Shown here: positions 1 through 15,848 of the stretch, in pieces
How positions within the stretch are numbered: the first letter of the stretch is position 1
Layout of the letters: each line of letters opens with the position of its first letter
Origin: Archaeoglobales archaeon
GTDB lineage: Archaea > Halobacteriota > Archaeoglobi > Archaeoglobales > Archaeoglobaceae
Direction of reading: 5' to 3'
Assembly (NCBI GenBank): GCA_003662985.1
Contig: QMZD01000005.1
Location: forward strand, 1-19,660
Length of the DNA: 19,660 nucleotides
Translations under genes and position numbers: made by a program
The notes under the pieces: generated by a model
What the model was told of the DNA's origin: nothing
The model's input: only the letters and a program-made list of their open reading frames with translations
Databases searched by the model: none

Positions 1-10
1 ATGTGTTGGT

Positions 11-1018: not shown

Positions 1019-2204
1019 CACTATACCAACCTATATAGGAGACGACATAACGTTCACAGCGAAATATATTCACTATTATAAACCGATAAATGGTACATGC
1101 GAGATAACAATAGACGGATTAACGTATCCAATGACGTTCAATGGTTATAACTACACCTACACTTACAATGCTCTTTCTTCTGAAAAAATAGCCTACAGCG
1201 TCTCATGTACTAATGCAACCTATGACAACCTAACAGCAAATTCTATTACCTGGGTAATTTATCCGTCAGAGATACATGGATATGTCTACAGCATGGCAAC
1301 TGGTAAACTTATACCTGATGCAAAAGTAACGTTGAGAGAGTTATGGCCGGGTGATTATTTATACACCTACAATGCCACTAACGGTAGTTTCATTTTGAAT
1401 ATGTCAGATCCTACAATGTCTGTGTACTTAATACAGGCAGTTTGGTATGATTCAGATGGTGTCGCTAGGTACTGCTCCCCAATGCTACCACCTAAACGCC
1501 CACCATCTTTAAGACCTGGTGAGACAAAGGCAATAGGCTATATAGACTTGTACCTTGTTGATGCAACCACCTTAAACATAACCTCTGCCACACAAGATGC
1601 TAATCCAACGACGTTTTCCGTAGAGGTCTTCTACAAGAACATACCCGTAGCTAGTTGTATAAAAGTAAATGCACCTCTCGAGATAGTTGTTCAAGCAAAC
1701 AACAACTATACTTTAGGTTACTTCAAGATGGAACTCAATGGAACTCCTTCAAAGGTGATAAGTGTAAATGCTAATGACTTGCCCCCAGGTTCTGTTTACA
1801 ATATCAGTTTAGACTTAACAGCTGTCTCATACAAATTGAACGGTACCATACTGCTGAATGGTGTGGGGGGAGGTATTGATTACTTGGGAATAGAAGTTTA
1901 TACATATGCTGGTGATGTTGTCCCAACAGCATCAGCTATCCCATTCTCAAACTCAAGTATAAATGCAACGAACGGATACTACGAACTAACACTTCCTGCA
2001 GACACAAAGATGGAGATAATTTTCTACGCGAAGGATGGAGATAAATACTACATTGGACAGCTACACAACATTCAGCTCTCAAATGATACAACTATGAACG
2101 TCACGCTACAGCAGGCTGCTGGGATACCAACTTGGAATGCATTCTTGCAAACAAATCTACCAAAAGTTTCTCTGGTTTTTCTAAGGGTTGACAGAGTGTG
2201 TTAA
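1002..2204 (+). CDS. Surface glycoprotein, middle fragment
   Basis: Open from about 1002; the first ATG is at 1131, but coding-like sequence (DDITFTAKY, NGTCEITIDG) begins well before it, so 1131 is not a real start. The piece begins with another Cys-paired Ig-like segment (NGTCEITID ... YSVSCTN). It continues into a carboxypeptidase-regulatory-like beta domain, recognisable from IHGYVYSMATGKLIPDAKVTL, about nt 1264-1440. A second segment of the same kind (KLNGTILLNG) lies near nt 1830-2110. Sequons remain frequent. It ends at TAA 2202-2204, just before GTFFEAKVAYPDG resumes in the same frame. Its last residues (LVFLRVDRVC) look unlike the rest of the protein, so one or more compensating indels around 2165-2205 are also possible. 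Confidence 0.65.
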   Translation, partial: HLASSDTIPTYIGDDITFTAKYIHYYKPINGTCEITIDGLTYPMTFNGYNYTYTYNALSSEKIAYSVSCTNATYDNLTANSITWVIYPSEIHGYVYSMATGKLIPDAKVTLRELWPGDYLYTYNATNGSFILNMSDPTMSVYLIQAVWYDSDGVARYCSPMLPPKRPPSLRPGETKAIGYIDLYLVDATTLNITSATQDANPTTFSVEVFYKNIPVASCIKVNAPLEIVVQANNNYTLGYFKMELNGTPSKVISVNANDLPPGSVYNISLDLTAVSYKLNGTILLNGVGGGIDYLGIEVYTYAGDVVPTASAIPFSNSSINATNGYYELTLPADTKMEIIFYAKDGDKYYIGQLHNIQLSNDTTMNVTLQQAAGIPTWNAFLQTNLPKVSLVFLRVDRVC

Positions 2205-3728
2205 GGTACATTCTTTGAAGCAAAGGTTGCATACCCGGATGGAAACACAATCACCTGGATGATAGAAAGGGACAAAACAACAGCCCAGTGTGGTGATATC
2301 TTACCGTATGTTTTACCGTTGCCAATTGGTTCAAGTATTACTGGGGGCATAATAAGTCTAAAGTCTCCACCATTTACAACAAGTATCAGTTCAGCGGAGA
2401 TAGCCAATGGCAGTGTAGTGGTAACCATGCCTCTTTTTGACGTGAGGGATCCTGATACAAACTCACTGATAACAGATGTTACCGTTCTTTTTCTGAAGTA
2501 CGTTTCTTATTGCGATATACCAGAGCCAAACATGACTGCATGTAAGATTGCTGAGATGGGCGCAGAGGACTTTGCTCCGCTAAGAGTGATAATGGCTGGA
2601 AAGGTAGATATAAGGATAGTACTTGGCAGTGGTCACATAGTTGAGTTTGTTGGAGTAGATCTGATAAACTCAGGGCCATTAAAGGCCGATATAGACATAG
2701 ATCCTGAAACGTATGTAAATAGATCTACTTCAACGATAGAGAAGATTTGGAAGATTGGATCGTTCGCTCCAGATATGTATGAATACATCTTGATCGGAAT
2801 ACCTTACGATATAACAGTAGAGGAGAGTCAACCAGTTAATATGAGCATACCCGTCCTTTATGATAATAACTGGAACATTATATGGAATGGAACCGGCCCA
2901 GTTCCTATTGACTACAGTGATTTTGATTCGAACTTTTTCACAAGTGGAGTCCAGTGTAGTGATACTGATGCTAATTTAACGGAAACGAGTTGTTATAGGG
3001 ATAAAGCAAATAACATGGTGTGGATGAAGATTCCTCATTTCTCAGGCATTGGACCAGAGTTATCGGGTACACTGGATAGTACAGCTCCAACAATCTCAGA
3101 TCTTTCACCGAGCGATGGATACTCAACAACAAACACAAAACCAACCTTCACGTTCAAAGTTACAGATAATGATCCACAAAACACTTGTTATCTGTATGTA
3201 GATAGCTTACTGGTCGCAACCGTAACCGTTACTACAAATACAAGTTCATCAATAGCTCCGTCTATCCCCTTATCAGTAGAGCCCCACACATGGTATTTAC
3301 TATGTGAGGATGGTGTCTTAAATCAGGGAAAATCACAAGTTAGGATCATAGAGATAACAGGCGAGATAGGCCTACCAAGTAAAGTAGATGGGGTTAGTGG
3401 AAATGGTGGTTTCATAGTCGTCAGCCCTACGCCATCTCCACCACCAATAGAGTTAGATAGTTCGCTTGACCTGATGCTTGGGTACAAAGTAGAGTTTACG
3501 TACTCTGGTAGTACGTATTCCCTTAAGATAGAGAAGATCTATGAAAACGAGGTAACAATAGTCATAAAGTCAGAACCGGCAATCATAGAAATTGCAGAAG
3601 GTGAAACCAAAGAAGTAGACATAGACGGAGATAGTAGCAATGATATAGCAGTAATGGTAGAGCAAATCTACAACGCAACAATGGCAAGGATAAAGATATC
3701 ACTCATACCGGAGGGAAAAAGGGGTTGA
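2205..3728 (+). CDS. Surface glycoprotein, C-terminal half fragment
   Basis: Coding-like from 2205 directly after the TAA; the first ATG is at 2259, giving 489 aa. It contains a beta-rich region and then an Ig-like segment at about nt 3079-3360 (LSPSDGYS, TCYLYVDS, WYLLCEDG). That segment resembles the first Cys-paired segment of the N-terminal fragment, so these are repeats of one domain type. A short Ser/Pro linker (VVSPTPSPPPIEL) leads to a closing domain whose pattern (LMLGYKVEFTY ... EIAEGETKEVDIDGDSSNDIAV) is typical of archaeal exported proteins just before a membrane anchor. It ends at TGA 3726-3728, in the frame left behind by the G run at 3721-3724. Confidence 0.65.
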   Translation, partial: GTFFEAKVAYPDGNTITWMIERDKTTAQCGDILPYVLPLPIGSSITGGIISLKSPPFTTSISSAEIANGSVVVTMPLFDVRDPDTNSLITDVTVLFLKYVSYCDIPEPNMTACKIAEMGAEDFAPLRVIMAGKVDIRIVLGSGHIVEFVGVDLINSGPLKADIDIDPETYVNRSTSTIEKIWKIGSFAPDMYEYILIGIPYDITVEESQPVNMSIPVLYDNNWNIIWNGTGPVPIDYSDFDSNFFTSGVQCSDTDANLTETSCYRDKANNMVWMKIPHFSGIGPELSGTLDSTAPTISDLSPSDGYSTTNTKPTFTFKVTDNDPQNTCYLYVDSLLVATVTVTTNTSSSIAPSIPLSVEPHTWYLLCEDGVLNQGKSQVRIIEITGEIGLPSKVDGVSGNGGFIVVSPTPSPPPIELDSSLDLMLGYKVEFTYSGSTYSLKIEKIYENEVTIVIKSEPAIIEIAEGETKEVDIDGDSSNDIAVMVEQIYNATMARIKISLIPEGKRG

Positions 3729-3736
3729 AATAACAC

Positions 3737-3907
3737 ATGAAGAGGTTGGGATTACTCCTGAAAGGAAAGAAATTGAAGAAAAAAGTTGAAGAGAAAATAC
3801 CAGTGAAGGCTAAACTTGAAGACGCGTATCTCCTAGTTTTGGTTGCGGTTTTTGTAGTGGTGGGCGTAGGGATTGTATTATTTATCCTAAGGAAGAAATT
3901 CTATTGA
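3737..3907 (+). CDS. Short protein with C-terminal TM anchor, probably the tail of the surface protein (56 aa)
   Basis: From ATG 3737 the frame encodes a highly basic start (KKLKKKVEEK), a short charged stretch, one strong transmembrane helix (about residues 31-51, LLVLVAVFVVVGVGIVLFIL) and a basic tail RKKFY. On its own it could be a small membrane protein. More likely it is the anchor of the preceding surface protein. Between 3721 and 3789 a third frame encodes EITHEEVGITPERKEIEEK, and single-base corrections in the G4 and A6 runs join all three frames into a stalk plus anchor. No good ribosome binding site precedes the ATG. Confidence 0.55.
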   Translation: MKRLGLLLKGKKLKKKVEEKIPVKAKLEDAYLLVLVAVFVVVGVGIVLFILRKKFY

Positions 3908-3921
3908 AATTCTTCTACTAA

Positions 3922-4122
3922 TACCAAGATGCCATAGCTACTGCAACCCCAATTTTCCTTCTATCAGCCGATGTATCGACCAACAATCTCAAAATGTGGT
4001 TACTTGCATATCAGCCAGAGCCGATGAGAAAGGAGGCAAATAGATTATCTAATTATGTCAACACGAGATTTACAGCGAAGGTGAATAATCGAAGTCGCTG
4101 TTTTTCTTCCAATTTTTTATAG
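3922..4122 (+). pseudogene. Unidentified coding remnant
   Basis: The stretch 3908-4241 has no complete gene. Within it, frame 1 is open from just after TAA 3919-3921 to TAG 4120-4122 and encodes a protein-like segment (DAIATATPIFLLSADVST ... AYQPEPMRKEANRLS) with ordinary amino-acid composition, a mix of hydrophobic and charged residues, and no start codon at its beginning. It looks like an internal or C-terminal piece of a lost gene. I do not recognise the family. The last dozen residues (RCFSSNFL) run into the T-rich terminator zone and are probably not original coding sequence. Confidence 0.3.
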
Positions 4123-4138
4123 CTTAACCACCTTTTTT
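4101..4138 (+). terminator. T-run cluster, probable archaeal terminator
   Basis: Three T runs lie in about 40 bases (4101-4105, 4113-4118, 4133-4138) downstream of the last coding-like sequence and before the tRNA promoter zone. Archaeal RNA polymerase stops at oligo-T tracts without needing a hairpin. The sequence shows only the runs; termination is inferred. Confidence 0.4.
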
Positions 4139-4162
4139 CGATGCAGTACCTGAAATTATATG

Positions 4163-4200
4163 GTATGTATTAAATAAATACCACAACTTTCATAAACCTT
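4163..4200 (+). promoter_or_regulatory. Possible TATA region for tRNA-Ser
   Basis: AT-rich TATA-like stretches (TATTAAATAAATA and TTCATAAACC) sit 45-80 bases upstream of the tRNA 5' end. Either could position initiation shortly before the mature tRNA. There is no way to choose between them from sequence alone. Confidence 0.3.
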
Positions 4201-4241
4201 AGAAGTAAAACTTTAGAACTAAGCATTCACAAACTGAATCT

Positions 4242-4323
4242 GCCGGGGTTGCAGAGAGGTACTGCGCCAGCCTTGAGAGCTGGTGCCCGTAAGGGCTCCT
4301 GGGTTCAAATCCCAGCCCCGGCG
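4242..4323 (+). tRNA. tRNA-Ser (UGA anticodon)
   Basis: The 82-base sequence folds as a complete class II tRNA. The acceptor stem is GCCGGGG/CCCCGGC with discriminator G, the D stem GCAG/CTGC, and the anticodon stem CCAGC/GCTGG enclosing the loop CTTGAGA (anticodon TGA). A 15-base variable arm carries its own GCCC/GGGC stem, and the T stem-loop is CTGGG-TTCAAAT-CCCAG. The long variable arm plus UGA anticodon and G discriminator identify serine. No CCA is encoded (GTCAG follows), as in most archaea, and no intron is seen. It borders a zinc-finger/coiled-coil operon; tRNA genes are common integration sites, but I found no second copy of its 3' end in the window. Confidence 0.95.
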
Positions 4324-4394
4324 TCAGAAATTTAGTTTCTACGCCGTTCATTTCTCAAATAAACTAACTAAAACAGCTTTTCACCGAAAAACAG

Positions 4395-4410
4395 AAATAT
4401 TAATATTTAT
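4395..4410 (+). promoter_or_regulatory. TATA box of the zinc-finger/coiled-coil operon
   Basis: AAATATTAATATTTAT ends about 12 bases before the ATG at 4422, with its 5' part near -26 of that ATG. There is no Shine-Dalgarno-like sequence between box and ATG (CCAAAACTAGT), which suggests a leaderless transcript starting at or next to the ATG. Confidence 0.5.
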
Positions 4411-4421
4411 CCAAAACTAGT

Positions 4422-4820
4422 ATGGAATTTGATTCAAGAAGAAACTTGCCGAGAGACAAAAAAGTAGGATATCAGTGTTGGTTTTGCAAGGCGGAGGGCA
4501 GAAGCGTTGTATTTGACACCGTACAGGCTCTTGCCGGCCACATTAGGATGGCTCACAAAAGCAGCACAAGAAGGAGAAAGAGGGCTAAACAGATAGAGAA
4601 AGCTGTGAACAAAATAGCAGGAATTTTCTCGGAAGATCAAGTTATTAGGATTATACTACGCCACCGCGGAGAACCGATAGCCGAGTTCCGGATGACACCT
4701 TCGATCAAAAAGATAGTTGAAGAAGCTCTGGAGATATCCAAAAAATTCGACAATAGAGCACTCCCTGTAGCTATCGTCCTTTCTAACCTTGGACTTTCAG
4801 AACTCAGGTGGTACGTATGA
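4422..4820 (+). CDS. Small zinc-finger protein (132 aa)
   Basis: The N-terminal half carries a C2H2-like finger: C19-x2-C22 in YQCWFC, then a helix with H40-x4-H45 (ALAGHIRMAH). A strongly basic stretch follows (STRRRKRAK, residues 48-56), fitting nucleic-acid binding. The C-terminal half (about 60-132) is predicted alpha/beta with no recognised motif. Such small C2H2 proteins are frequent in archaeal mobile elements and as local transcription factors, so regulation of its own operon is a reasonable inference but unproven. The ATG at 4422 follows a TATA box with no leader. The stop overlaps the next start as ATGA (4817-4820), implying translational coupling. Confidence 0.75.
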   Translation: MEFDSRRNLPRDKKVGYQCWFCKAEGRSVVFDTVQALAGHIRMAHKSSTRRRKRAKQIEKAVNKIAGIFSEDQVIRIILRHRGEPIAEFRMTPSIKKIVEEALEISKKFDNRALPVAIVLSNLGLSELRWYV

Positions 4821-6370
4821 GCGAGCTCGAAAATGCTGTAGGAGAACTTAGGAGGCTCGCGAGGAAGGAGCACTTAGATCGAGAAGAATTGGAAAGGGCA
4901 AAAGATAGTATGAGAGAACTCAGGAGAATGGGTTTCAGTAGCGAAGAAATTAGCGAGCTATCTGAGAGAACTTGGAGCCCCTCTACGATAAGGCAATATG
5001 CGGCGTCAGTTAAAGTTGAGAAGGGGACAAGAGACCTCGCGATAAAGATGCTGGCAGAACTCGTTGAAAGAGGATTAACACTGAGCGATGTGGAGATGTT
5101 TCTGGGTATGCGAAAGAGACTCGAGGAGCTCGGAATTAGTTTTGAGGAATTCACCAATCTTCTAGAAGAGCTGAGGAGAAAGAACATTGAGCTCAGAGAC
5201 TTGATCCACGTCCAACGAATGCTGGAAGATGGGCTAACAAGCGAAGAGATTGAGTCCGCAGTATCTTGTAAATCAGAACTCCAGAAGCTCGGAATAAATG
5301 TCGACCACGTTAAAAGGATAGTCGAGGTTTCAAAGTTTTACGGAGGATTGAACGAATTCTTGGAGGCTGTGGAGAAGTTTAAAGAGCTTAAATCCATAAG
5401 GAGCGAACTAGAGAAGCTAGAAGTTCTCAAGAGAAGCCTCAATAGCAGAATACGTGAGCTCAGGGAGGAAATTTCAAACCTTGAAGAGCGGAGGAGCAAG
5501 ATAAAATATGCACTAAATCTTTTTGGTGAGCTGAAGAAGCGGGGATTTGACGAGAGAGCTCTTGAGGTACTTAGAAAGGCTGCGGAAAAGTACGGCGGAG
5601 TGAAAGAAGTCCTAACGGCCGTGAATACCTTCGGAAAAGTTAAGGAGATTGAACGAAAAATCTTCGAAGCCGAGAAGATTAAGTCTGAGGTAGAGGCGGA
5701 GCTTAAGTTACTTAAAGCCGATTACGTTCACCTCCAAACTGTCGTTAAGTTGTGCGATGAACTGCTCTACAAGCACGGATTCACAATTCAGGCAATTACG
5801 GATGTTTATGAGATCGCTAAAAGGTACGGGAATCCAATAGAAGTCATAAAGACGATTGAAAAGTATGGAAGCATAAGAGAACTGGATGAGGAAATAAAGA
5901 AGCTAGAGGTAAGAAGAAAAGAGCTGGAAGCGAGAATTTCCGAACTTGAGGAACAAACGCAAGTGATGAGAAGAAGAGTAGGGGAAGTCAAGAAGTTCGT
6001 TGAGGAAGTTTTTGAAGCTTCTGCCAACGCAATTAGGAGAAAGATCGAGGAAACTATTGACAGCATAGCTTCGGGTTACGAGGAGTACGCGAGAAGACTT
6101 GGCGAACTTAAGAGGGAAGCAGGGAAGTTCGAGAAGGAGTTAGAATTTGCGAGAGTGTTTAATACCTTGTTGATGCACCCAGAAGCAATTAAAGAGCCTC
6201 AAAAGCACTTCTGCTCGGTAGCACTTCGGGCAATCTACAACCACTGTATTCGAGTAGGGTACAATCCTACAGTGAAGGTCTACGAATCTGTGAGAGAGAA
6301 AGTTGTCTACGATAAAAAAGTGACGCTTCTCGAAGTCTTGGAACTGGCCTTAAAGGCTTTCAGATTATGA
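4817..6370 (+). CDS. Large coiled-coil protein with ~80-residue internal repeats (517 aa)
   Basis: The start chosen is the ATG at 4817, which overlaps the previous stop as ATGA; an in-frame GTG at 4808 would add only three residues. The protein has no signal peptide or transmembrane segment and is rich in Glu, Lys, Arg and Leu. Residues 1-155 are helical with short hairpins opened by G-[FL]-[ST] motifs (GFSSEEI, GLTLSDV, GISFEEF, GLTSEEI). Three copies of a longer unit follow at about 155-202, 239-286 and 317-364. Each runs LG/RG/HG, a helix ending in YGG or YGN, and a second helix rich in K and E that extends into coiled coil. A long coiled coil spans about 355-450, followed by a compact tail with C466 and C477. 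No catalytic motif (Walker A, nuclease) is visible. It is stop-start coupled to both neighbours. A structural, DNA-organising or regulatory role is possible; the function is unknown. Confidence 0.75.
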   Translation: MSELENAVGELRRLARKEHLDREELERAKDSMRELRRMGFSSEEISELSERTWSPSTIRQYAASVKVEKGTRDLAIKMLAELVERGLTLSDVEMFLGMRKRLEELGISFEEFTNLLEELRRKNIELRDLIHVQRMLEDGLTSEEIESAVSCKSELQKLGINVDHVKRIVEVSKFYGGLNEFLEAVEKFKELKSIRSELEKLEVLKRSLNSRIRELREEISNLEERRSKIKYALNLFGELKKRGFDERALEVLRKAAEKYGGVKEVLTAVNTFGKVKEIERKIFEAEKIKSEVEAELKLLKADYVHLQTVVKLCDELLYKHGFTIQAITDVYEIAKRYGNPIEVIKTIEKYGSIRELDEEIKKLEVRRKELEARISELEEQTQVMRRRVGEVKKFVEEVFEASANAIRRKIEETIDSIASGYEEYARRLGELKREAGKFEKELEFARVFNTLLMHPEAIKEPQKHFCSVALRAIYNHCIRVGYNPTVKVYESVREKVVYDKKVTLLEVLELALKAFRL

Positions 6371-6828
6371 GCTTGGAAAAAATTGAGAGGTGCATAGAGG
6401 AGCTTGAAGCCATAAAACACTACAAGGAAGTGAAGAGGGAGAGAGACAAACTTCTGAAGAGAGTCGAGGAACTCGAAAATGAATTGCGGGTTGTGAGAGA
6501 AAGAACGAAAGAATACTCGGAAAAGATAAGAGAGCTAGAAAGAGAGATCACAAAGAGGGACACCGAAATGGCGTATCTTAAATCGGAGCTCAATGCAAAG
6601 AACAGCAGGATTCGCAAGCTAGAGAAGACTCTTAGTGAATACGAACTAAGGATTATTGAGCTGGAAGGAATCAAAGCTACCGCTGAGGGTAAGACCGTCG
6701 CAGAAGTGGTAGGGGAAATCCCCAAAAAGGAAAAGAAAGAAATTGAGAGAAAGAGCAAGGAAATATTTGCTAAGAAGTTAGGGAAATCGTGGAAGATTCT
6801 GAAAAACCCAAGCTGGTCTGGTTTTTGA
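6367..6828 (+). CDS. Coiled-coil protein with altered C-terminus (153 aa)
   Basis: The ATG overlaps the previous stop (ATGA, 6367-6370). Residues 1-105 are an almost uninterrupted heptad-rich coiled coil (KRVEELENELRVV, EKIRELEREI, IRKLEKTLSEYELRIIELE). A short segment follows (GKTVAEVVGEIPKKEK) and then a basic helix. The last 14 residues (KSWKILKNPSWSGF) are encoded by DNA that, one frame over, encodes the start of the surviving part of a periplasmic-binding-protein gene. The natural C-terminus therefore appears to have been lost at a recombination junction near 6770-6790, and this tail is fortuitous. It is probably a partner of the preceding coiled-coil protein. Function unknown. Confidence 0.65.
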   Translation: MSLEKIERCIEELEAIKHYKEVKRERDKLLKRVEELENELRVVRERTKEYSEKIRELEREITKRDTEMAYLKSELNAKNSRIRKLEKTLSEYELRIIELEGIKATAEGKTVAEVVGEIPKKEKKEIERKSKEIFAKKLGKSWKILKNPSWSGF

Positions 6829-7217
6829 TATGGAAGGGGGTTGTATATGTTCCGAGAGGGGAGAGCTACGTTGCAAAGATGGCTGAGTACGCTAATGCAA
6901 ACTACGTCTTTTCAGATCTGAACGGCACCGGAAGTGCGAAGGTAACTCTTGAGGATCTGCTGCTTAGGGGAAGCGATGCCGATGTGGCAGTTTACTCATC
7001 CTACAGAGTCAAGAATGTAAGTGATCTGCTCGAAATCGACAGCAGACTTTCGGAGATCAAGGCTGTTAAAACCGGAAGGATCTACAGAATTTCAGAAGAT
7101 TATTGGCAGCTCGGATTGCTACACACTGATGTCGTAGTAAAGGATTTGGCTGCCATATATCATCCAGACAAATTCAAAGACTACAAACCGAGGTTTTTCG
7201 TAAAACTCGAAAAATGA
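6789..7217 (+). pseudogene. btuF: 5'-truncated ABC transporter substrate-binding protein (BtuF/FecB type, 142 aa left)
   Basis: The remaining frame matches the C-terminal lobe of periplasmic binding proteins of the BtuF/FecB/FhuD kind: a strand-helix start (KPKLVWFLIWKG, VYVPRGESYVAKMAEYANANYVF), a central DADVAVYSS strand, and the late motif EIKAVKTGRIYRISEDYWQ followed by HTDVVVKDLAAIYHP. Family members are about 300-380 residues, so the N-terminal lobe, the linker helix and the signal peptide are missing. Homology begins near 6774, inside the preceding coiled-coil gene. The GTG at 6789 is only a formal start. Without an export signal the product cannot act outside the membrane. It is coupled to the permease by an ATGA overlap at 7214-7217. 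It may still be transcribed from the upstream coiled-coil operon. Confidence 0.7.
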
Positions 7218-8194
7218 AGAGAGTTATTTTTTTCCTAATACTTTTTGTATTCTCCCTCTTCTCAGTTTTTGCGGGGATCATGATAGGATCTGTTAGCGTG
7301 AGCCTGAAAGACATGCTCAACGCCTTAAACGGCTCCGAAGACATAAAGAGCTATATAATACTTAACGTCAGACTTCCGAGAACCGTTGCCGCATACCTTG
7401 GCGGCGCTACCCTAGCTTTGAGCGGGCTTTTACTCCAGACCTACTTCAGAAATCCTCTAGCTGGCCCCTACGTTCTCGGAATTTCATCAGCAGCTTCCTT
7501 CGGAGTAGCCCTATACGTTCTGTCGGGCATCGGAATCGGATACTACGGACTTGTCGGTTCGGCTATGGCGGGATCGTTAGCTGCTATTGTCCTTGTGCTA
7601 ATCATTGCAAGCAGAGTAAAAAGCGCCGTAACACTGCTCATAATCGGGCTCATGCTCGGCTACATATTCGGAGCCCTCGAAAGAATACTCATAACGTTTG
7701 CTGAAAGCGAGGCCGTGCACCAATTCGTTTTGTGGACGTTTGGAAGCTTTTCTGGAGTAACTTGCGAAGACCTTCCGATAATATTTTCCGTAACGCTTTT
7801 AGTGTTCTCATTTGCAGTTTTTTTGGCCAAACCGCTAAACGCTCTGCTTATGGGTGAAGATTATGCGAAGAGTATGGGTGTGAACGTTAAGCTTACGAGA
7901 GTAGCCATCGTTCTTCTCTCAAGCATTTCAGCCGCTGTGATTACGGCGTTTGCAGGGATAATCGCATTTATAGGCTTAGCAACACCCCACATAACCCGCT
8001 TAATTTTCAGAACGTCTGATCACAGGGCGCTCATACCTTCCGTAATAGTGTGCGGAGCTCTGATAACCGTGCTCTGCGATATATTCTCCCGAACAATCGT
8101 TGCTCCAATTGAGCTACCGATCAGCGTTGCCACATCACTCATCGGAGCACCCATAGTAATATCACTTATACTCAGAAGGAAAAGGATCTCCTGA
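7214..8194 (+). CDS. btuC: BtuC/FecCD-type ABC permease, probable corrinoid importer (326 aa)
   Basis: This is a full-length polytopic membrane protein of the FecCD family, with about ten hydrophobic helices after a short basic start. Family hallmarks are visible: RLPRT at 53-57, GLLLQTYFRNPLAGPYVLGIS at 71-91, and the cytoplasmic coupling loop AFIGLATPHITRLIF near 251-265 followed by DHR. In the cobalamin context, vitamin B12/corrinoid uptake is the best guess, though siderophore transporters share these features. Its ATPase partner is probably the BtuD-like gene at 10048 on the other strand. Its binding-protein gene upstream is truncated. The 3' end overlaps the convergent chelatase gene by 23 bases. 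Confidence 0.85.
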   Translation: MKRVIFFLILFVFSLFSVFAGIMIGSVSVSLKDMLNALNGSEDIKSYIILNVRLPRTVAAYLGGATLALSGLLLQTYFRNPLAGPYVLGISSAASFGVALYVLSGIGIGYYGLVGSAMAGSLAAIVLVLIIASRVKSAVTLLIIGLMLGYIFGALERILITFAESEAVHQFVLWTFGSFSGVTCEDLPIIFSVTLLVFSFAVFLAKPLNALLMGEDYAKSMGVNVKLTRVAIVLLSSISAAVITAFAGIIAFIGLATPHITRLIFRTSDHRALIPSVIVCGALITVLCDIFSRTIVAPIELPISVATSLIGAPIVISLILRRKRIS

Positions 8195-8944: not shown

Positions 8945-8970
8945 CTATCTCGTGTTTTTTCTCTCCTCCG
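8945..8970 (-). other. Probable -1 ribosomal frameshift site in chlD
   Basis: On the minus strand the ChlI frame reads AGA AAA AAC ACG AGA TAG. This contains A AAA AAC (8960-8954) in exactly the phase of the canonical -1 slippery heptamer X XXY YYZ. Slipping back one base reads CAC GAG ATA and enters the VWA frame. GGAGG (8969-8965) lies four bases upstream and could pair with 16S rRNA. The 0-frame stop follows within nine bases. A 6-bp hairpin (TTCGAC/GTCGAA, 8924-8908) lies further downstream, probably too far to act as the usual stimulator. The fused product would be about 622 residues. Confidence 0.7.
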
Positions 8971-10039
8971 GACTTTGCGGTAATTTCGGCATCTTCCTTT
9001 TAGCTTCATCTTTTTCCTCTTTTTCTTTCCGTTCTTCTTCCGCCTCTTGTATCGCATTCTTGAGAATGCTCTCTATTTTATCAAACTCCAATTTCGGCTC
9101 CTCAAACGGTTTCGATTTCATTCTGTGTGGCAGGGTTAACTCAGCAACTTCCATGACGTCTTCCAAGCTCACTTCTTTCCTACCTTTAAAAGCAGCTAAA
9201 GCCTTTGCCGCTCTAATAGTTATTATATCAGCTCTGTGGGTTTCTATCCCCAATTCACTACACAGCCTCGCAACAGCATGAACTATTTCGTCTGAAACTG
9301 TAACTTCGTTGAGTATGTTCCTGGCAATTTCGATTCTCTTCCTCAGCTTTTCCTGTTCCGGTTCGAACTTTTTGTAAAAGGCTTCTGGATTCTTGGAAAA
9401 TTCTTCCACTCTCTTAATAACTTCTGCTCTCAGTTCGGGATCACTTATAGCTTTCACATCGACGACCATACCGAATCTATCGAGGAGCTGGGGTCGTAGC
9501 TCACCCTCTTCTGGATTCATGGTTCCCACGAGAATGAACCTTGAGGGATGTCTGAACGAAATCCCCTCCCTCTCGATGACGTTCCAGCCACTCGCTGCGA
9601 CGTCAAGCAGAGTATCTACTATGTGATCATCGAGCAAGTTCACTTCATCTATGTAGAGGATGTTGTTGTTAGCTTCAGCCAAAATACCAGGCTGAAAAGC
9701 CTTAATACCATCCTTCAAGGCTCTCTCGAAATCGAGCGTTCCAACAACTCTGTCTTCAGTTGCTGAAAGTGGTAGCTCAACAATCCTCATTCTCCTTTTC
9801 ACGAATTTCTTTTCCTTCTTTCTGCATTCATCGCACATAGCTTCCTTAGAGCAGTTAAATATGCAGTCTGAAACTTCGATTTCGGGAAGAACGTCAGCAA
9901 GAGCTCTTACAGCTGTCGACTTCCCTGTTCCCTTATCACCTCTGAGCAAAACACCCCCTATCTTCGGATTTATGGCGTTCAAAATTAGGGCTTTCTTCAT
10001 TTTCTCCTGCCCGACTATTGCCGTAAATGGATATATCAT
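8945..10039 (-). CDS. chlI: ChlI-like AAA+ subunit of Mg/Co chelatase; 0-frame product of chlD (364 aa)
   Basis: The ATG at 10039 begins [13 protein letters not shown], the classic opening of ChlI/BchI-type motors. Walker [10 protein letters not shown] is at 34-42, Walker B ILYIDEVN at 127-134, the sensor region [19 protein letters not shown] near 172-190, and a C-terminal helical lid follows ([16 protein letters not shown]). Four cysteines (C59, C63, C69, C72 in [14 protein letters not shown]) sit where many family members have a probable metal site. A Glu/Lys-rich linker (328-348) ends after a PEERKNTR stretch at TAG 8945-8947, only three codons beyond a slippery heptamer. The gene therefore seems able to make both a short ChlI-like protein and a ChlI-ChlD fusion. 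It follows btuD by 8 bases in the operon. The role is ATP-driven metal insertion with CobN (not in window), cobalt being likely given the setting. Confidence 0.85.
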
Positions 10040-10047
10040 GAGACAAC

Positions 10048-11124
10048 CTACCTGAGAACATCCTTAAAGCTCATATCTCGATCTCTAAAGCTCAAAACCT
10101 TTTTTCCAACCTCCAAAAGATCGAGATTTCTAGCGTTGATTTCTCCAACGGGAAATCCCGTGTCGATTATTATCTTTCCTTCGGCAAGCTTGACAGCCCT
10201 CCCAAAGCTCTCATCACTTATCCGCTCGTAAGGTTTCTCACTAACAACGGCATTTGCCAAGCATTTTGCCACTACGAAGTCCACATCGTTTTCGTGAAGG
10301 ACTCCAACTGTAAAACCAACGCCCTTTTTCGCAAGAAACCTCATAAGTTTTGATCCTGTGCCAGCTCCGCAGACCACGTGAACTTTCGCATCGCCGCAGT
10401 TTCTAATCTCAAAGGAACCTATGTTTTCTTCGAAGTAAGCGTTGCTTATTCCGTAAGCCTTGCCGAGGTTTTCTGCTGTGAGGACTTCTTCTGGAATTCC
10501 TTGGCATATCCACCCGTTTCCGATGAGCACGACTCTGTCGCATATCCTCAAAGCCAATTCGATGTCGTGGGTTGTCAGCACGATCGCAACGTTTTTTTCG
10601 CTCGCAATCCTGCGAAGTAAGAGCATTATCTCCACTTTGTGTTTGGCATCAAGAAAACTCGTTGGTTCGTCAAGCAGCATAACTTCCGGATCCTGAGCTA
10701 ATGCCCTCGCTATCAGAACCTTCTGCTTCTCCCCATCGCTCATCTCGAAAAACAGTCTGTTAGCGAGATGTTCGGCGTTAACTATTTTAAGGCACTCGAG
10801 TATGAACTCAATGTCCTTCTCTCTCAACCTTCCGAAGATGTCCGAGTAGGGGTATCTGCCCAACGCCACAACGTCGAATGCAGTGAGATATCCGACGTCA
10901 CTTCTCTCTGTGAGCATCACGGACATCTTTTTTGCCAACTCAATGGGTTTAAGCTTGAAGATCTCTCTTCCGTCTATGTAAGCTGTTCCCCTTATGGGTT
11001 TGAGCATGTTTGCTAACGTTCTTAGCAAAGTCGATTTTCCGCAACCGTTAGGACCGAGTATTCCGACTATCTCCCCTCTCTCAACTTCAAAGCTAACGTT
11101 GAGCACGGGAGTGCTATAACCCAC
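10048..11124 (-). CDS. btuD: BtuD/FecE-type ABC ATPase with C-terminal extension (358 aa from GTG)
   Basis: Counting from GTG 11124: Walker [10 protein letters not shown] 24-32, signature MSDGEKQKV 128-136, Walker B VMLLDEP 148-154 and switch H186, with the FecE-like segment ALGRYPY at 87-93. Residues 235-358 form an extra domain ([17 protein letters not shown], a Rossmann-like glycine turn) that I recall from archaeal BtuD-like ATPases; its job is unknown. The start is odd. The frame upstream encodes the expected first strand ([11 protein letters not shown]) but has no ATG, GTG or TTG. ATT at 11151-11149, preceded by GGTGAT (11160-11155), may be the true start and would give 367 aa. It probably pairs with the BtuC permease at 7214, which lies on the opposite strand. 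Confidence 0.85.
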
Positions 11125-11141: not shown

Positions 11142-12035
11142 TTAGAGAAATAGTATCACCCCCACAATTAGAATTGCACCGATAATTAGAGACGCTACAC
11201 CGTTCAACACGACTATTTTAATTCCCAATTTCCCAAAAAGAGACACATGGAGTGGTAATGAATGTTTAATGTAAGAAGTCGAAAAAGTCACAACGTTTCC
11301 GAGCATGAGAGCGACAATAGCCAACTCAATGGATAAAGCGTCGCTTTCGAGCAAACTTTTGCACACGACTATCGATGCTTTCTGGTTGATTAACTGGATG
11401 GCGGAAACAGATAGCACAGCTGGATCAAGCAGTAGAAATGATAAGCTAGATGAAAAAATACTGGATTGAAGCATTAGCTGAACAAAAAAGTAAGTTGCAA
11501 TCATAACTGGAAGTGTGTTCTTAACAATCTCAAGCGTTGAAAAAGATCCAACTTTAATGTCTTGTTTTGCCTCGCTTTTCTTTCTGATATTCCACATTCT
11601 CGCAATGGCTAGCCCTATCAGAGACTTTACTACCGCAACAGTCAGCCTCAAAGCCGCGTAAATGAAACCAACCCAGCCCAAAACGGGTATTACGAATGGT
11701 ATAAGAAAGCAGTAAAAATGCGTTAGCATGGAGGGAAACGAATTTATAAACGAGGCGGCTATCACCTCTCTGTCATCTATTGCCTTCTCCCTCAGAGCTT
11801 GAGACAAAATTGAGTACGCTGCTGTAGCACTTACGAAGCAAACAGCTACGGATGAAACCGTAACTTCGCTCAGATTTAATCTCTTTAAAAGTGGTTTAAT
11901 GCGTTCACTGAATTTTTCCATTAAACCCCTCTCAATGAGTTGAGAAGTTGCAAAACTCGCCACAAGTATAACCGGAAATGTCGACAGCACGAATTTCAGA
12001 GTGGAATTTGCGGCTTCGATTATATCCAAGTTCAT
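11142..12035 (-). CDS. Gate-domain (nucleoside-recognition-like) membrane protein (297 aa)
   Basis: This polytopic protein has about eight hydrophobic helices in two similar halves. The segment VSSVAVCFVSATAAYSILSQ ... DREVIAASFINSFPSMLTHFY ... PFVIPVLG resembles the Gate/nucleoside-recognition family, which is related to part of FeoB and includes uncharacterised archaeal membrane proteins. A cytoplasmic basic loop (MWNIRKKSEAKQD) separates the halves. The ATG at 12035 starts two bases after the cbiT stop, so it is co-translated with the cobalamin operon. A role in metal or corrinoid transport is suggested by position only; the substrate cannot be read from sequence. Confidence 0.6.
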   Translation of the reverse strand: MNLDIIEAANSTLKFVLSTFPVILVASFATSQLIERGLMEKFSERIKPLLKRLNLSEVTVSSVAVCFVSATAAYSILSQALREKAIDDREVIAASFINSFPSMLTHFYCFLIPFVIPVLGWVGFIYAALRLTVAVVKSLIGLAIARMWNIRKKSEAKQDIKVGSFSTLEIVKNTLPVMIATYFFVQLMLQSSIFSSSLSFLLLDPAVLSVSAIQLINQKASIVVCKSLLESDALSIELAIVALMLGNVVTFSTSYIKHSLPLHVSLFGKLGIKIVVLNGVASLIIGAILIVGVILFL

Positions 12036-12037
12036 AA

Positions 12038-12544
12038 TTATTCATCACTCACAGATCCGACCACGATGAAGACCGGATTTAGACTTTTAAAAGCTGTCAA
12101 GCCCGCAAGCTCGTAACTCTTGGACACATTTACGATAAGCATCTCCGTGAAGATTTCCAGCTTTTTCATAATCTCAGCAACCCTCACAGCGACTTCCACG
12201 CGAGCAGCGTTTACCGCTACCCTTTTTGCTTTGGATGACGCAATTTTAAGCATTCTCTCTATGTTTTTTGTACCTCCAAAGAACACTATGTCGTAGTCGT
12301 AGTTTCTGAGAAACTCGGCTCCATCCATGTGAATGACCTCCACATTTTCGAATCCCGCCAGCCTTTTTCTTGAAGCTTCAATGGCTTTAGCATCTACATC
12401 TACAGCATATACCTTTGCAACATAAGGAGCGAAGAATTCCGAAACGCTACCGCTTCCGCATCCTACGTCTGCAAATACGTCTTGCTTTTCCGGTTTTAAC
12501 TTTGCAAAAAGTACGCCGATGATTTCAGGCTTTGTGACTTTCAT
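12038..12544 (-). CDS. cbiT: CbiT, cobalt-precorrin C15-methyltransferase/decarboxylase (168 aa)
   Basis: This is a class I SAM methyltransferase. Motif I is ADVGCGSGS (about 25-33), the acidic end of strand 2 is YAVDVD, and the CbiT-specific FFGGTKNIE is at about 88-96. The opening VTKPEI matches the usual MTKEEI near the start of CbiT. I prefer ATG 12544, which overlaps the 3' end of the upstream gene by 20 bases; a TTG at 12556 would add four residues. Both give a shorter N-terminus than many homologues. CbiT methylates C15 and decarboxylates the C12 acetate, usually with CbiE (C5 methylation), which is not in this window. It sits among transport genes rather than in the divergent cbi operon. 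Confidence 0.88.
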   Translation of the reverse strand: MKVTKPEIIGVLFAKLKPEKQDVFADVGCGSGSVSEFFAPYVAKVYAVDVDAKAIEASRKRLAGFENVEVIHMDGAEFLRNYDYDIVFFGGTKNIERMLKIASSKAKRVAVNAARVEVAVRVAEIMKKLEIFTEMLIVNVSKSYELAGLTAFKSLNPVFIVVGSVSDE

Positions 12545-13118
12545 GCTTAGTCTCAATCAGGTAGTTTAGAACTCCAACAGCTGCGATTATCAGACCAGCC
12601 ACAAGATCCTCTCTTCTACGCAGAAATTCTGGTGGCTTGAAAGCTTTGTACGACAGGTATCTCAGAGCTACAATCGTTGAGATCGTGGCAACTGCGAATG
12701 ACGCTGCAACGCCTACAATCTCGGCAGCAGTTCTGGCTGCAAGCATCAGGGGTATCAGCGGCACGCACGGTGATAAGCCGAGAATTAGCAAAAGCATAAG
12801 TGTTGATGCAGAATGCGCGTGGTGGTGCCCTTTAATGACGGACAGAATCGCGCATCCAATCCCAATTGCAATCAGAAGGAGAGGAGACGATCTTTCCACA
12901 GCCTCTGCAAAGCCCAGCAAGTCTATGCCAAGTATCAGCAGCATGCCCAGGATAATCGAGGTCAGAACGTGAACTGTGCCTGCAATTCCTGATAATGCGA
13001 GAGTTTTTCCAGCACTCCACTTTCTGGCTTTTCCGATTGCAACGAAGGGTAAGTAGTGGTCCGGAGCTAAAGAGTGTACGACGGTTATGCTAACCGACGC
13101 AACTATTAAAATCTCCAA
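12525..13118 (-). CDS. NicO/UreH-like Ni2+/Co2+ permease (197 aa)
   Basis: A six-helix membrane protein. The first helix contains H15-x4-D20-H21 (HSLAPDH), the HX4DH signature of nickel/cobalt transporters. A cytoplasmic His cluster (GHHHAH, 97-102) and the helix-start motif GLSPCVPLIPLMLA agree with the NicO/UreH/RcnA superfamily. The start is TTG 13118, supported by a strong GGAGGTGA (13132-13125) nine bases away inside the end of cbiO; the genes overlap by 29 bases. In this operon cobalt is the probable ion. Import or export cannot be decided from sequence. Confidence 0.75.
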   Translation of the reverse strand: MEILIVASVSITVVHSLAPDHYLPFVAIGKARKWSAGKTLALSGIAGTVHVLTSIILGMLLILGIDLLGFAEAVERSSPLLLIAIGIGCAILSVIKGHHHAHSASTLMLLLILGLSPCVPLIPLMLAARTAAEIVGVAASFAVATISTIVALRYLSYKAFKPPEFLRRREDLVAGLIIAAVGVLNYLIETKHESHKA

Positions 13119-14121
13119 TACTTTTCACCTCCACCCTTGTTTTGCCATCCTCAAGAATTTCAAAATAAACTGGGAACTTCACGACCTCTCTTCTAACTAC
13201 ATTGAGCATTTCAGCACTGCAGATCAGCAGAACTGTGTGACCTTCAATAGCTCTAAGAATTGATCTCTCAAGGACAGTTGAAGTTATATCAACATTTATT
13301 CCCTCTTTCATAGCTCTCTCCTTGGCTTTGTATCCCATCGCAGCCACAAAATCTGCACTGACATCTGGAATTCCAGTGTTGTGCGGAACGACTATAAGCT
13401 TTCCACTCTGGAAAGTTCTTATCCCGAGCTTTCTTGCTAAGCTGAAGTCAACTTCATCACCCTCGTAAACAACCTTGCCAGCATCCATGAAAACGAATTT
13501 ATCTCCAATTGCTTTTGCAAGGTCAAAGTCGTGCGTTGAAACAATCAGACCTTTGCCCCGCCCCCTCAACCTCTCCACGATTTCAACGACTGCTTTGAAG
13601 CCGAGCGCATCGACACCCGCCGTTGGCTCGTCCATAATCACGTATTCGGGATCCATCGCTATCGCCGAAGCAATTGCAAGCTTCTTCTTTTCTCCACCGC
13701 TCAGCGTGCTGCAGAGTCTTCTTTCGTAACCCTCAAGCCCGACAACCCTCAAAGCTTCGTTCACGATAACCTTCAGCTCGTCCTCCTTAAAACCGAGATT
13801 TGCTGGTCCAAATGCAACGTCCTGCGACACCGTTGGGGCTATTATTTGGTCATCTGGGTTCTGAAATACATATGCCACTTTTTTCCGCAACTCTATCAGG
13901 CTCTTTCTGTCATAGGACACTTTCTTACCATCAACCCGTATCTCTCCCCTCCTCGGCTTTAACAGTCCGTTGAGGTGCATCAGCAGAGTTGTCTTTCCTG
14001 CTCCATTCCTACCCATCAAAACAGTTACTTCTCTCCTCGCAGCTCTGAAATTAACCCCCCTCAGCACTTCTGCTTTATCGTAGCCAAACCAGAGATTTCT
14101 TGTCTCGATCATCACGCCCAT
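13090..14121 (-). CDS. cbiO: CbiO, energy-coupling ATPase of the cobalt ECF importer (343 aa)
   Basis: ABC ATPase with Walker A GRNGAGKTT (37-45), Q-loop FQNPDDQ (86-92, typical of CbiO/EcfA), signature LSGGEKKKL (140-148), Walker B YVIMDEPTAGVDA (160-172) and switch H197. After about residue 240 comes a 100-residue extension (IVVPHNTGIPDVSADFVAAMG ... VDITSTVLERSIL) absent from minimal CbiO proteins. Starts are possible at ATG 14121 or at the ATG at 14112, which overlaps the cbiQ stop as TGATG; the latter gives the more usual MIETRNL opening. It works with CbiQ, CbiN and CbiM encoded just upstream. Confidence 0.92.
   Translation of the reverse strand: MGVMIETRNLWFGYDKAEVLRGVNFRAARREVTVLMGRNGAGKTTLLMHLNGLLKPRRGEIRVDGKKVSYDRKSLIELRKKVAYVFQNPDDQIIAPTVSQDVAFGPANLGFKEDELKVIVNEALRVVGLEGYERRLCSTLSGGEKKKLAIASAIAMDPEYVIMDEPTAGVDALGFKAVVEIVERLRGRGKGLIVSTHDFDLAKAIGDKFVFMDAGKVVYEGDEVDFSLARKLGIRTFQSGKLIVVPHNTGIPDVSADFVAAMGYKAKERAMKEGINVDITSTVLERSILRAIEGHTVLLICSAEMLNVVRREVVKFPVYFEILEDGKTRVEVKSIGDFNSCVG
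13125..13132 (-). promoter_or_regulatory. Ribosome binding site of the NicO-like gene
   Basis: GGAGGTGA on the minus strand, inside the end of cbiO, nine bases from GGAGG to TTG 13118. It is the best match to the anti-Shine-Dalgarno in the minus-strand operon and fixes the non-ATG start. Confidence 0.65.
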
Positions 14122-14831
14122 CCGAGAAAAATTATAGTAAGCATCACTGCAATAGCGAAGCTCAAACCTCTGTTTTCAACCTCAAGCACCGGAAATTCGC
14201 CAGCATAGCATCTTGCAGCCATTGCAACGTTCAATTTCTCAGCCCTGCTCAGAGATTTAATGAATAGAGTGTATGCGAGCATTGATGTCGTTTTCAGAAA
14301 GCTCTTGAAGCTTGCATATCCGAGCCTCGAAGAGGCTGCACGATCAAACCTCCCCGCTTCATCAAAAAGGGTCTGTACGGCCCTGTATACAAGCAGGAGC
14401 ATCTCAACTGCAAAGTCTGGAAGCTTCAGCTTTTTTAATGCAGAGACGAGTTCTGGAATTGAGGTTGTGATTATGAGGTAAAAGAGGACTGAAAGAGATG
14501 CAAAAGAACGCAAGAGAACTGAGATGGCGGTATTGAGGCTTTTATCAGTTATCTGAAAAATCCAGAGCTCTAAAACAGGTTTTCCATTTATTGTTACAAG
14601 AATGACGGCAATGCCAGCAATCAAGAAGGAGAGCGGAACCTTCAGTAACCTCAGATAATGCTTTCCGGCCGCATGAAGTGAGAGAGCTGAGAATATAATG
14701 ATAGCAGCAATCTGAGCCTTTTGATTCAGTAAAATCGTTAGCAGGAGAGAAATAAAAGCAAAATAAACCTTCACGTAACCATCCACAACTTTCCTTGACT
14801 CTACCTGAACTTTCTCAAGCGTTTCGCGCAT
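14112..14831 (-). CDS. cbiQ: CbiQ, transmembrane coupling subunit of the cobalt ECF importer (239 aa)
   Basis: A helix-rich membrane protein with four or five hydrophobic segments in its first 125 residues, and a cytoplasmic helical region. That region carries the two coupling motifs of EcfT/CbiQ: the Ala-Arg segment RAASSRLGY (164-172) and AARCYAG (205-211). These bind grooves in the CbiO dimer. The ATG at 14831 overlaps the end of cbiN by 17 bases, and its stop overlaps cbiO. Length matches the family. Confidence 0.9.
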   Translation of the reverse strand: MRETLEKVQVESRKVVDGYVKVYFAFISLLLTILLNQKAQIAAIIIFSALSLHAAGKHYLRLLKVPLSFLIAGIAVILVTINGKPVLELWIFQITDKSLNTAISVLLRSFASLSVLFYLIITTSIPELVSALKKLKLPDFAVEMLLLVYRAVQTLFDEAGRFDRAASSRLGYASFKSFLKTTSMLAYTLFIKSLSRAEKLNVAMAARCYAGEFPVLEVENRGLSFAIAVMLTIIFLGWA

Positions 14832-15090
14832 GCTTTGCCCCTCTGTAGTAACCGAGGAAGTAGCCTATCAGCAACGCCCCTATGGCTGCCTGCAGGCTGA
14901 ACAGGAAGCTCTCGATCTCACCGCTTGGCGGCTCCCATACTGGAGAGAACCACGGCTCGTAGTTTGGGTTGATCTCTTTAATTGCCTCTTCTGCCTGCTC
15001 ATCAGCCCCTGCCCACTCCTCACCAGCTGCAACAGATATGAAAGCAAAGATCGTCAGAAGCACCAATACTGAAAGCAAAAGCTTTTTCAT
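14815..15090 (-). CDS. cbiN: CbiN, small membrane subunit of the cobalt importer (91 aa)
   Basis: Two transmembrane segments (about 4-22 and 66-81) flank an external loop with the CbiN hallmark WAGADEQAEEAIKEINPNYEPWF followed by WEPPSGEIESFLFSLQAA. CbiN assists loading of Co2+ into CbiM. The ATG overlaps the cbiM stop as ATGA (15090-15087). Length fits the family. Confidence 0.92.
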   Translation of the reverse strand: MKKLLLSVLVLLTIFAFISVAAGEEWAGADEQAEEAIKEINPNYEPWFSPVWEPPSGEIESFLFSLQAAIGALLIGYFLGYYRGAKHARNA

Positions 15091-15740
15091 GCCGCCACCA
15101 CCTCAGCAACATCTTCTCTCACTTCAACTAGGTAGCTAACCAACAAGGCTGCAACAACACCCTCCATCAGCGCAAGAGGGATCTGCGTTACGGCGAAGAT
15201 TGCCATGAACTTCATTGTAGATTCGATTACTCCGGCTAAGCTCGGATTTGCCGGAAATGCAAGAGCTAGCTGGAATGATGTGACAACGTAGGTCACCCAG
15301 TCGGCAACTGCTGCTGCAGCAAATACGGCAGTCTTCAAGCCAAACCGCCTGATAGCTTTATAAACTAACCAGCCAGCAAACGGACCGATGATACCCATCG
15401 ACGCTGTATTTGCTCCAAGCGTCGTCAATCCGCCGTGAGCCAGAAGCAGAGCTTGATAGAACAGTACGATGACGGATATGAAAGCTGTAGCAGCAGGACC
15501 GAATAAAACCACCGCAACGCCAGTACCTGTTGGATGTGAACAGCTTCCAGTTACTGAAGGTAGCTTCAGAGCAGAGAGTACGAAGACGAATCCTGCAGCT
15601 ACTGCAAGCAGAGACTTGGCACCGGGATTAGCATCGATTCTCTTCCTCACTATCCAAGCTCCATAAACTACTACTGGTATAGAAAAGGTGTACCAAGCTG
15701 CACACCATTCAGCCGGTAAAAAACCTTCCATTATGTGCAT
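15087..15740 (-). CDS. cbiM: CbiM, substrate-specific subunit of the cobalt importer (217 aa)
   Basis: Polytopic membrane protein of the CbiM/NikM family. The start is set at ATG 15740, giving MHIMEGFLP: the N-terminal amine and His2 are metal ligands in this family, so an upstream GTG (15749) adding three residues would spoil the site. GGTGAT (15750-15745) lies four bases before this ATG. The other ligand region is the SCSHPTGTG motif near residue 66-74. First gene of the minus-strand operon, preceded by a TATA-like box at 15780-15773. Confidence 0.93.
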   Translation of the reverse strand: MHIMEGFLPAEWCAAWYTFSIPVVVYGAWIVRKRIDANPGAKSLLAVAAGFVFVLSALKLPSVTGSCSHPTGTGVAVVLFGPAATAFISVIVLFYQALLLAHGGLTTLGANTASMGIIGPFAGWLVYKAIRRFGLKTAVFAAAAVADWVTYVVTSFQLALAFPANPSLAGVIESTMKFMAIFAVTQIPLALMEGVVAALLVSYLVEVREDVAEVVAA

Positions 15741-15848
15741 CCATATCACCTTACTTCAAATCAAGTAAATTTTATTTAAACTTTTCTGGATTCGAACTTA
15801 AGAAAACTTTAATAAAGATGCAGAAAGCTAAGGAGGTGAGGTGAAAGG
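15741..15848. promoter_or_regulatory. Divergent promoter between cbiM and cbiL
   Basis: A 108-base AT-rich gap serves both operons. Minus strand: TTTAAATA (15780-15773), about 26 bases before the GGTGAT binding site of cbiM. Plus strand: TTTAATAAA (15808-15816), about 33 bases before the cbiL start. Between the boxes lie back-to-back palindromes TTCGAA and CTTAAG (15791-15802), and ACTT-N6-AAGT lies near 15753-15766. A shared operator for a metal or cobalamin regulator is possible but not shown. Confidence 0.5.
15832..15844 (+). promoter_or_regulatory. Tandem Shine-Dalgarno sequence of cbiL
   Basis: GGAGGTGAGGTGA contains two overlapping matches to the archaeal 16S rRNA 3' end. The second leaves four bases before TTG 15849 and supports that non-ATG start. 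The GTG at 15841 is out of frame with the protein. Confidence 0.65.

Follow-up and report, generated by a model that had tools for sequence, protein, structure and literature searches.

A split chlD-like chelatase gene in an Archaeoglobales genome, with a putative young frame break upstream of an A_AAA_AAC heptamer

A chelatase locus on an Archaeoglobales contig raises the question of how two overlapping reading frames, one for a ChlI-like AAA+ domain and one for a ChlD-like VWA domain, came to be separate, and whether ribosomes join them by slipping at a heptamer in the overlap. Programmed frameshifting in bacterial and archaeal chlD genes reportedly yields the small and medium cobalt-chelatase subunits from one gene. 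The window analysed here is the whole of contig C5 (19660 bases), which belongs to a metagenome-type assembly of 383 contigs that is ~81% complete. Archaeoglobus neptunius and Geoglobus ahangari were among the organisms named in database matches, and the family is accordingly taken as Archaeoglobaceae.

Layout of the split chelatase gene

On the minus strand, the AAA+ (ChlI/CobS-like) frame runs from 10039 to 8945, encodes 364 amino acid residues, and ends with TAG at 8947–8945. The VWA (ChlD/CobT-like) frame of the same strand is open for 275 codons (8999–8172), and GTG at 8882 is the first ATG, GTG, or TTG after its opening at 8999. Read as ORFs, the two frames are in a -1 relation and are both open over 55 bases (8945–8999). 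The AAA+ frame ends with GAG GAG AGA AAA AAC ACG AGA TAG, in which the heptamer A_AAA_AAC (8960–8954) is phased in the 0 frame such that a -1 shift leads into the VWA frame, and the stop is the third codon past it. The sequence GGAGG at 8969–8965, four bases 5′ of the heptamer, lies within Gly-Gly codons of the VWA frame, and Gly-Gly is also present at this position in an intact relative, P0005. A -1 slip at the heptamer would give 622 residues without encountering a stop. The first-pass annotation had described the heptamer, its phase, the stop, the GGAGG four bases upstream, and a VWA frame open without a start codon before GTG 8882, and all of this held when the sequence was re-read.

The same annotation took the two frames to be halves of one gene, and it was right. 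Pfam searches detected PF01078 (1.6e-14) and AAA_lid_2 (9e-21) in the AAA+ frame and VWA_2 (3.2e-15) in the VWA frame translated from GTG 8882. The best NCBIfam match of both was TIGR02442, whose N-terminal half matched the AAA+ frame with 514.7 bits and whose C-terminal half matched the VWA frame from 8999 with 201.3 bits; scanned separately, each half scored below the whole-protein cut-off of 779.45, as did the intact P0005, also a best match to TIGR02442 (712.5 bits). Single-frame archaeal ChlD proteins, TIGR02442-like and named putative cobaltochelatase, have a like domain order and length (607–648 residues, compared with 622 for the slipped product), but these relatives need no shift, whereas the frame of the window is broken and no cobN is linked to it.

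The precedent that had been invoked, frameshifted chelatase genes, is borne out for the magnesium chelatase of Methanocaldococcus/Methanococcus in PMC3711429. As Antonov et al. 2013 (PMC3711429) and Kuznetsov et al. 2022 (PMC9227772) describe them, such frameshifted chlD (fs-chlD) genes resemble the window in their AAA+ and VWA frames overlapping in a -1 relation, in an A-run slippery site within the overlap, and in predicted short ChlI-like and long ChlD-like products. Some fs-chlD genomes also carry a separate chlI (PMC9227772). Published chlD sites read A_AAA_AAR and are subject to strong purifying selection (PMC5009743), whereas the window has A_AAA_AAC, which is unshared by the clade members examined and lies downstream of the inferred break. 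Our literature search found no Archaeoglobus case.

Origin and position of the frame break

We refer to the chlD of the window as type A and to the second chlD of the same genome, on contig C104, as type B. Among the 57 genomes of the order examined, type-A chlD was present in five (G008, G034, G066, G018, and G000, the genome of the window); it was one frame in all four others and split in G000. In protein searches covering the best 120 of ~8000 matches each, 15 of the 17 AAA-bearing type-A clusters were single proteins of 607–648 residues. Among the matches listed, these single-protein clusters (P0001–P0015) were 64–90% identical, and the AAA-only clusters were P0016, which is of the window's kind, and P0153. 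A search of genome contigs gave at least 80 loci; those listed had 39–48% identity, for which reason none was taken as type A.

A tree was built with 13 of the 15 single-protein clusters, P0002 and P0004 being left out as near-copies of P0003. The type-A clade was supported at 100/100 in this tree, in other parts of which the program flagged long branches. The window protein and P0016 stood beside the intact P0001, P0003, and P0005, and this five-member set (100/99) lay inside more intact copies. Since the window's lineage is nested among intact copies, the split is derived and arose in that lineage. At the junction place, A_AAA_AAC was absent from all three relatives read as DNA (L005, L006, and L007); L005, an intact relative, has A_AAA_AAG at another linker position. 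With one frame in all four other type-A genomes and no heptamer at that place in L005–L007, the idea that related chlD genes conserve the site and the stop was not borne out. Because the close relatives examined lack the signal there, the locus would at best be a recent instance of something already known.

A join at the heptamer would predict similarity between intact relatives and the AAA+ frame right up to that point, which the nearest relatives do not show. The 13-residue peptide read in the VWA frame from 8999 to 8961 matched P0005 at 10 of 11 positions and P0001 and P0003 at 9 of 12, with scores of 43–50 that none of 500 shuffles equalled. Translated in the AAA+ frame, these bases gave a peptide that scored 16–20 against the three proteins, and 182–455 of 500 shuffles were as good. 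For five more distant relatives, neither frame was clear upstream of the heptamer (the best was the AAA+ frame against P0006, with 49 of 500 shuffles as good); the chlD linker diverges fast. The VWA-frame homology thus reaches upstream of the heptamer in the nearest intact relatives, and this protein alignment places the break at about 8990–9003 on the minus strand, in a low-complexity, purine-rich linker ~30–43 bases 5′ of the heptamer, where a net loss of one base or gain of two bases probably occurred.

These results give no support to the heptamer as a designed joining point. It lies where the old frame encodes two lysines, whose counterparts are Arg-Arg in P0005 and Ile-Lys in P0001. Its phase is automatic, since GAG AAA AAA CAC of the VWA frame always reads A_AAA_AAC from the other frame. 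The GGAGG is accounted for by Gly-Gly codons in the old frame. The main alternative proposed earlier, an error in the run of six A's, was misplaced for the same reason: as a cause of the split, it was rejected on the VWA-frame homology upstream of the heptamer.

An assembly or sequencing error elsewhere would leave the gene as one frame in the cell, and the metagenome-type assembly with its 383 contigs, the involvement of a single base, and the one-frame nearest relatives could all suggest it. On the other hand, P0016 shares the shifted C-terminal tail, ...PEERKNTR, and one residue distinguishes it from the window protein. Its cluster has three member sequences and a longest contig of 19329 bases (19660 for the window), and a VWA-only cluster, P0121, has five members and two contigs. 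The second sequence is thus non-identical and on another contig, though it may come from related data, and the inferred break lies outside any long homopolymer. When ORFs from parts of two congeneric genomes, G001 (388 kb) and G005 (800 kb), were compared with 42 contig stretches of G000 (538 kb), one frame change was found in 13,996 and 31,594 residues, that is, in at most 45,590 aligned residues, some genes perhaps being counted twice; the reverse comparison gave none in 14,382 and one in 29,816. Because a second, non-identical sequence has the same ending and the sampled assembly is nearly free of frame changes, random error is unlikely as the source of the split, and we regard a gene that is one frame in the cell as quite improbable.

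The heptamer, chance, and possible slippage

The frequency of such heptamers was examined in the window and in intact genes. Together, 21 ORFs of the window contain seven A_AAA_AAN in the 0-frame phase in 5844 codons, the site at 8960–8954 included. We deleted each linker base in turn in 20 of 21 intact chlD genes (L022 was skipped), and in 516 of the 4395 simulated losses a canonical heptamer in the rescuing phase was met before the new stop; 496 of these 516 were A6N. The per-locus mean was 13%, with none in 12 of the 20 loci, and the four type-A loci gave 0/141, 0/144, 152/153 (L007), and 6/156. A rescuing heptamer after a linker break is therefore roughly a one-in-eight accident, and its presence here is only mildly unexpected. 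An exact in-phase slippery heptamer can thus be a by-product of an upstream frame break, and where linkers are rich in lysine, phase by itself is poor evidence.

These frequencies bear on the proposal that -1 frameshifting was selected in this lineage, with A_AAA_AAC tuned for a fixed 364:622 ratio of small and medium subunits in a new fs-chlD. The canonical heptamer in exact phase with a stop three codons on would fit this, as would an architecture equal to that of the frameshifted Methanococcales chelatase genes in the published account (PMC3711429), several AAA-only Methanococcales proteins ending in ..KKN, and the A_AAA_AAG in the linker of L005. RNA folding downstream of the heptamer in four overlapping windows gave z values of -0.51, -0.17, -0.12, and -1.83; the last, for which 7 of 200 shuffles were as good, amounts to a mild structure, but the other three were unremarkable. 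The split is, however, found in none of the four other type-A genomes or the 15 single-protein clusters, the site is absent from the junction in L005–L007, where the DNA was read, the heptamer is within the chance range, and Gly-Gly codons account for the GGAGG. We consider programmed frameshifting improbable at this locus.

True gene splitting would instead yield two proteins, like separate CobS and CobT, with the VWA protein begun at GTG 8882 by coupling or reinitiation. VWA-only records elsewhere in the clade (P0122, P0123, and P0124) are in its favour, P0122 starting at the equivalent residue, as is the listing of one contig of 91083 bases for both P0153 (366 aa) and P0124 (265 aa). But GTG 8882 is 62 bases beyond the stop and cuts the conserved KG(K/R)RVKS...GRYV segment, and starts set by gene callers are no evidence of initiation, so that this explanation seems very improbable.

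We tentatively favour a genuine frame break of recent origin, after which opportunistic -1 slippage possibly rescues some full-length ChlD, although our own judgement of it is almost evenly divided. The starting point would be a fused ChlD-type ATPase gene (AAA+, linker, and VWA), normally one frame in this clade, that recently underwent a net one-base frame break in the linker near 8990–9003. Standard decoding would then pass through ~15–19 codons in the shifted frame to the stop at 8945 and give the 364-residue ChlI-like protein as the main product. At the slip-prone A_AAA_AAC just before the stop, a minority of ribosomes would probably move back one base and produce the 622-residue ChlD-like protein, whose linker would differ from those of the relatives by ~14 residues. 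Slippage would be an opportunistic rescue and not a conserved programmed signal. Judged from the sequences compared, the break is probably real in the cell and slippage may occur.

Published rates give a scale for such slippage. In Escherichia coli, three chelatase slippery sites with 7, 9, and 11 A's gave 10, 40, and 63% shifting, respectively (PMC3711429). A_AAA_AAC itself is given as the shift site of the haloarchaeal virus HCTV-2 (PMC5009743). The same paper states that A_AAA_AAC shifts far less readily in E. coli than A_AAA_AAG does, which speaks against slippage here. By analogy, slippage on six A's and a C with no clear stimulator would be expected at or below the low end of the measured rates. 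In the Sulfolobus solfataricus fucA1 gene, slippage at A-AAA-AAT was ~10% in vitro and low in vivo (PMC8211752). The case resembles that of the window in that a -1 break at an A-AAA-AAY run interrupts an archaeal gene which most close relatives have at full length. The enzyme is a different one, an alpha-fucosidase, and in fucA1 the A-run length itself differs from that of the full-length genes, whereas the break and the slippery run are ~30–43 bases apart in the window.

If slippage rescues the protein, this locus would illustrate, at an early stage, how dependence on frameshifting arises in a gene, and it has intact close relatives for comparison. An extension of this reading, which we think unlikely, is that an existing slip-prone A-run made an accidental linker indel tolerable, giving a frameshift-dependent chlD at birth, and that one-frame and two-frame chlD genes can interconvert repeatedly via linker indels. 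The independent splits of P0153/P0124 and of genome G321, described below, and the dnaX-like in-phase A6 heptamers of intact linkers would then be other steps of the same cycle. If true, it would explain the origin of the scattered fs-chlD genes.

In several intact linkers, for example those of L002, L005, L009, L011, L018, and L021, an in-phase A_AAA_AAN is accompanied by a stop in the -1 frame no more than 6 codons away; this arrangement resembles that of dnaX and could allow a one-frame chlD to produce ChlI. We surveyed such sites in 106 single-frame chlD genes (six further loci, the window's included, gave no such frame), and 88 genes remained after 18 with N or no recognised linker had been skipped. 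Their linkers held 23 in-phase A6N where 11.4 were expected, a count reached in 1 of 300 simulations, compared with 34 against 34.3 outside the linker in the same genes. Among 45 genes below 75% identity, linkers held 14 against 7.6 under whole-gene codon usage (2/500) and 14 against 9.7 when codons were permuted within the linker (28/500); with a -1 stop required within 6 codons, they held 11 against 7.7 (57/500). The excess was weak and lost under the strictest control, and an enrichment of hidden sites in intact linkers was rejected as not robust.

Genomic neighbourhood and other linker splits

The locus was compared with those of four relatives, all of which keep a binding protein and a FecCD permease convergent to an ABC ATPase and chlD. 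In the window, an ABC transporter ATPase of the corrinoid/siderophore type (10048–11124, minus strand) is syntenic and upstream of chlD, followed by a Gate-domain protein (11142–12035, minus strand), which was matched syntenically in three of the four. The FecCD permease (7214–8194, plus strand) is convergent and overlaps the end of the VWA gene by 23 bases. The substrate-binding protein is a remnant (6789–7217, plus strand) of only the C-terminal 142 residues, compared with 361–387 residues in three relatives.

This remnant bears on the main rival explanation, that the gene is on its way out: the medium-subunit function would be lost, the cobN-linked chlD on C104 would suffice, and the type-A module would be decaying. 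The C104 gene is intact (627 aa, with 59% identity in the AAA part) and adjoins the only CobN found in the assembly, in keeping with this explanation. As to a separate small-subunit (chlI) gene, the other matches in this ~81% complete assembly were that fused gene (59%) and two at 28–31%. It also agrees with decay that no cobN was found at the syntenic place in the window, while cobN lies ~3 kb from type-A chlD in G008, G018, and G034. The type-A cobN may, however, simply be missing, as the assembly is ~81% complete, and in G066, which has an intact type-A chlD, no CobN was seen either. The reading frames of both halves of the gene, the permease, the ATPase, and the Gate protein are uninterrupted. 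A nearly invariant arginine is altered in P0016, as decay would allow, but the window protein keeps every one of the 218 residues that 12 other type-A proteins share without variation. That test carries little weight, and a very recent loss of function would look alike, because P0001 and P0003 likewise had no changes and the short branch of the window has only six clear changes in AAA+ and VWA, for which the probability of no hit is 0.05 even with all six unconstrained. Taking these points together, we hold decay to be possible but rather unlikely.

The remaining flanks of the window differ in character. Upstream of the binding-protein remnant lie a tRNA-Ser (4241–4325) and a 520-aa ORF (4808–6370); the latter, for which the order's 56 other genomes gave no match, may be counted with the signs of decay nearby. 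Positions 1–6789 also contain a 132-aa ORF with Cys and His, ORFs that resemble coiled coils, and AT-richer ORFs that matched neither Pfam nor PHROG; this stretch could be an integrated element, a rearrangement, or part of a chimeric contig. Positions 12038–19658 form a cobalt/cobalamin neighbourhood that includes a methyltransferase (weak CbiT match), CbiO, CbiQ, a short ORF in the CbiN position, CbiM, tetrapyrrole methylases, and a methylase-CbiC fusion (17759–19201).

Linker splits were also seen elsewhere. P0153 and P0124, taken as one locus because both list one 91083-base contig, appear to be a second type-A chlD split in the linker, placed beside intact Geoglobus ahangari in the tree; from the two proteins, back-read by hand, their frames would be in a +1 relation around an apparent G-run. 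In a phylum-wide search of 392 genomes, 26 of the 30 loci examined were single-frame, one had a gap of N, two lacked the search motif, and one was split. The split locus, L283 (G321:C15), has a 385-aa AAA frame, a VWA frame in a +1 relation, a long overlap, and no A-run. Since not all linker breaks have a slippery site, the programmed reading of any single break is weakened; chlD linkers seem to tolerate or attract indels.

The phylum-wide list contained many AAA-only frames of ~355–394 aa, and no Methanococcales genome was recognised among the 30 loci examined. The AAA-only chelatase proteins P0155–P0168 include ones that carry Methanococcales names or group with that order, and among these P0159, P0160, P0165, P0166, and P0167 end with Lys-Lys-Asn, as AAR AAR AAY followed by a stop would predict at the protein level. 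P0122, a VWA-only, type-A-like protein (64%), and P0217, which is identical (100%) to the type-B ChlD of this genome, both list a longest contig of 40136 bases, and P0122 could represent a third chelatase fragment close to the cobN locus.
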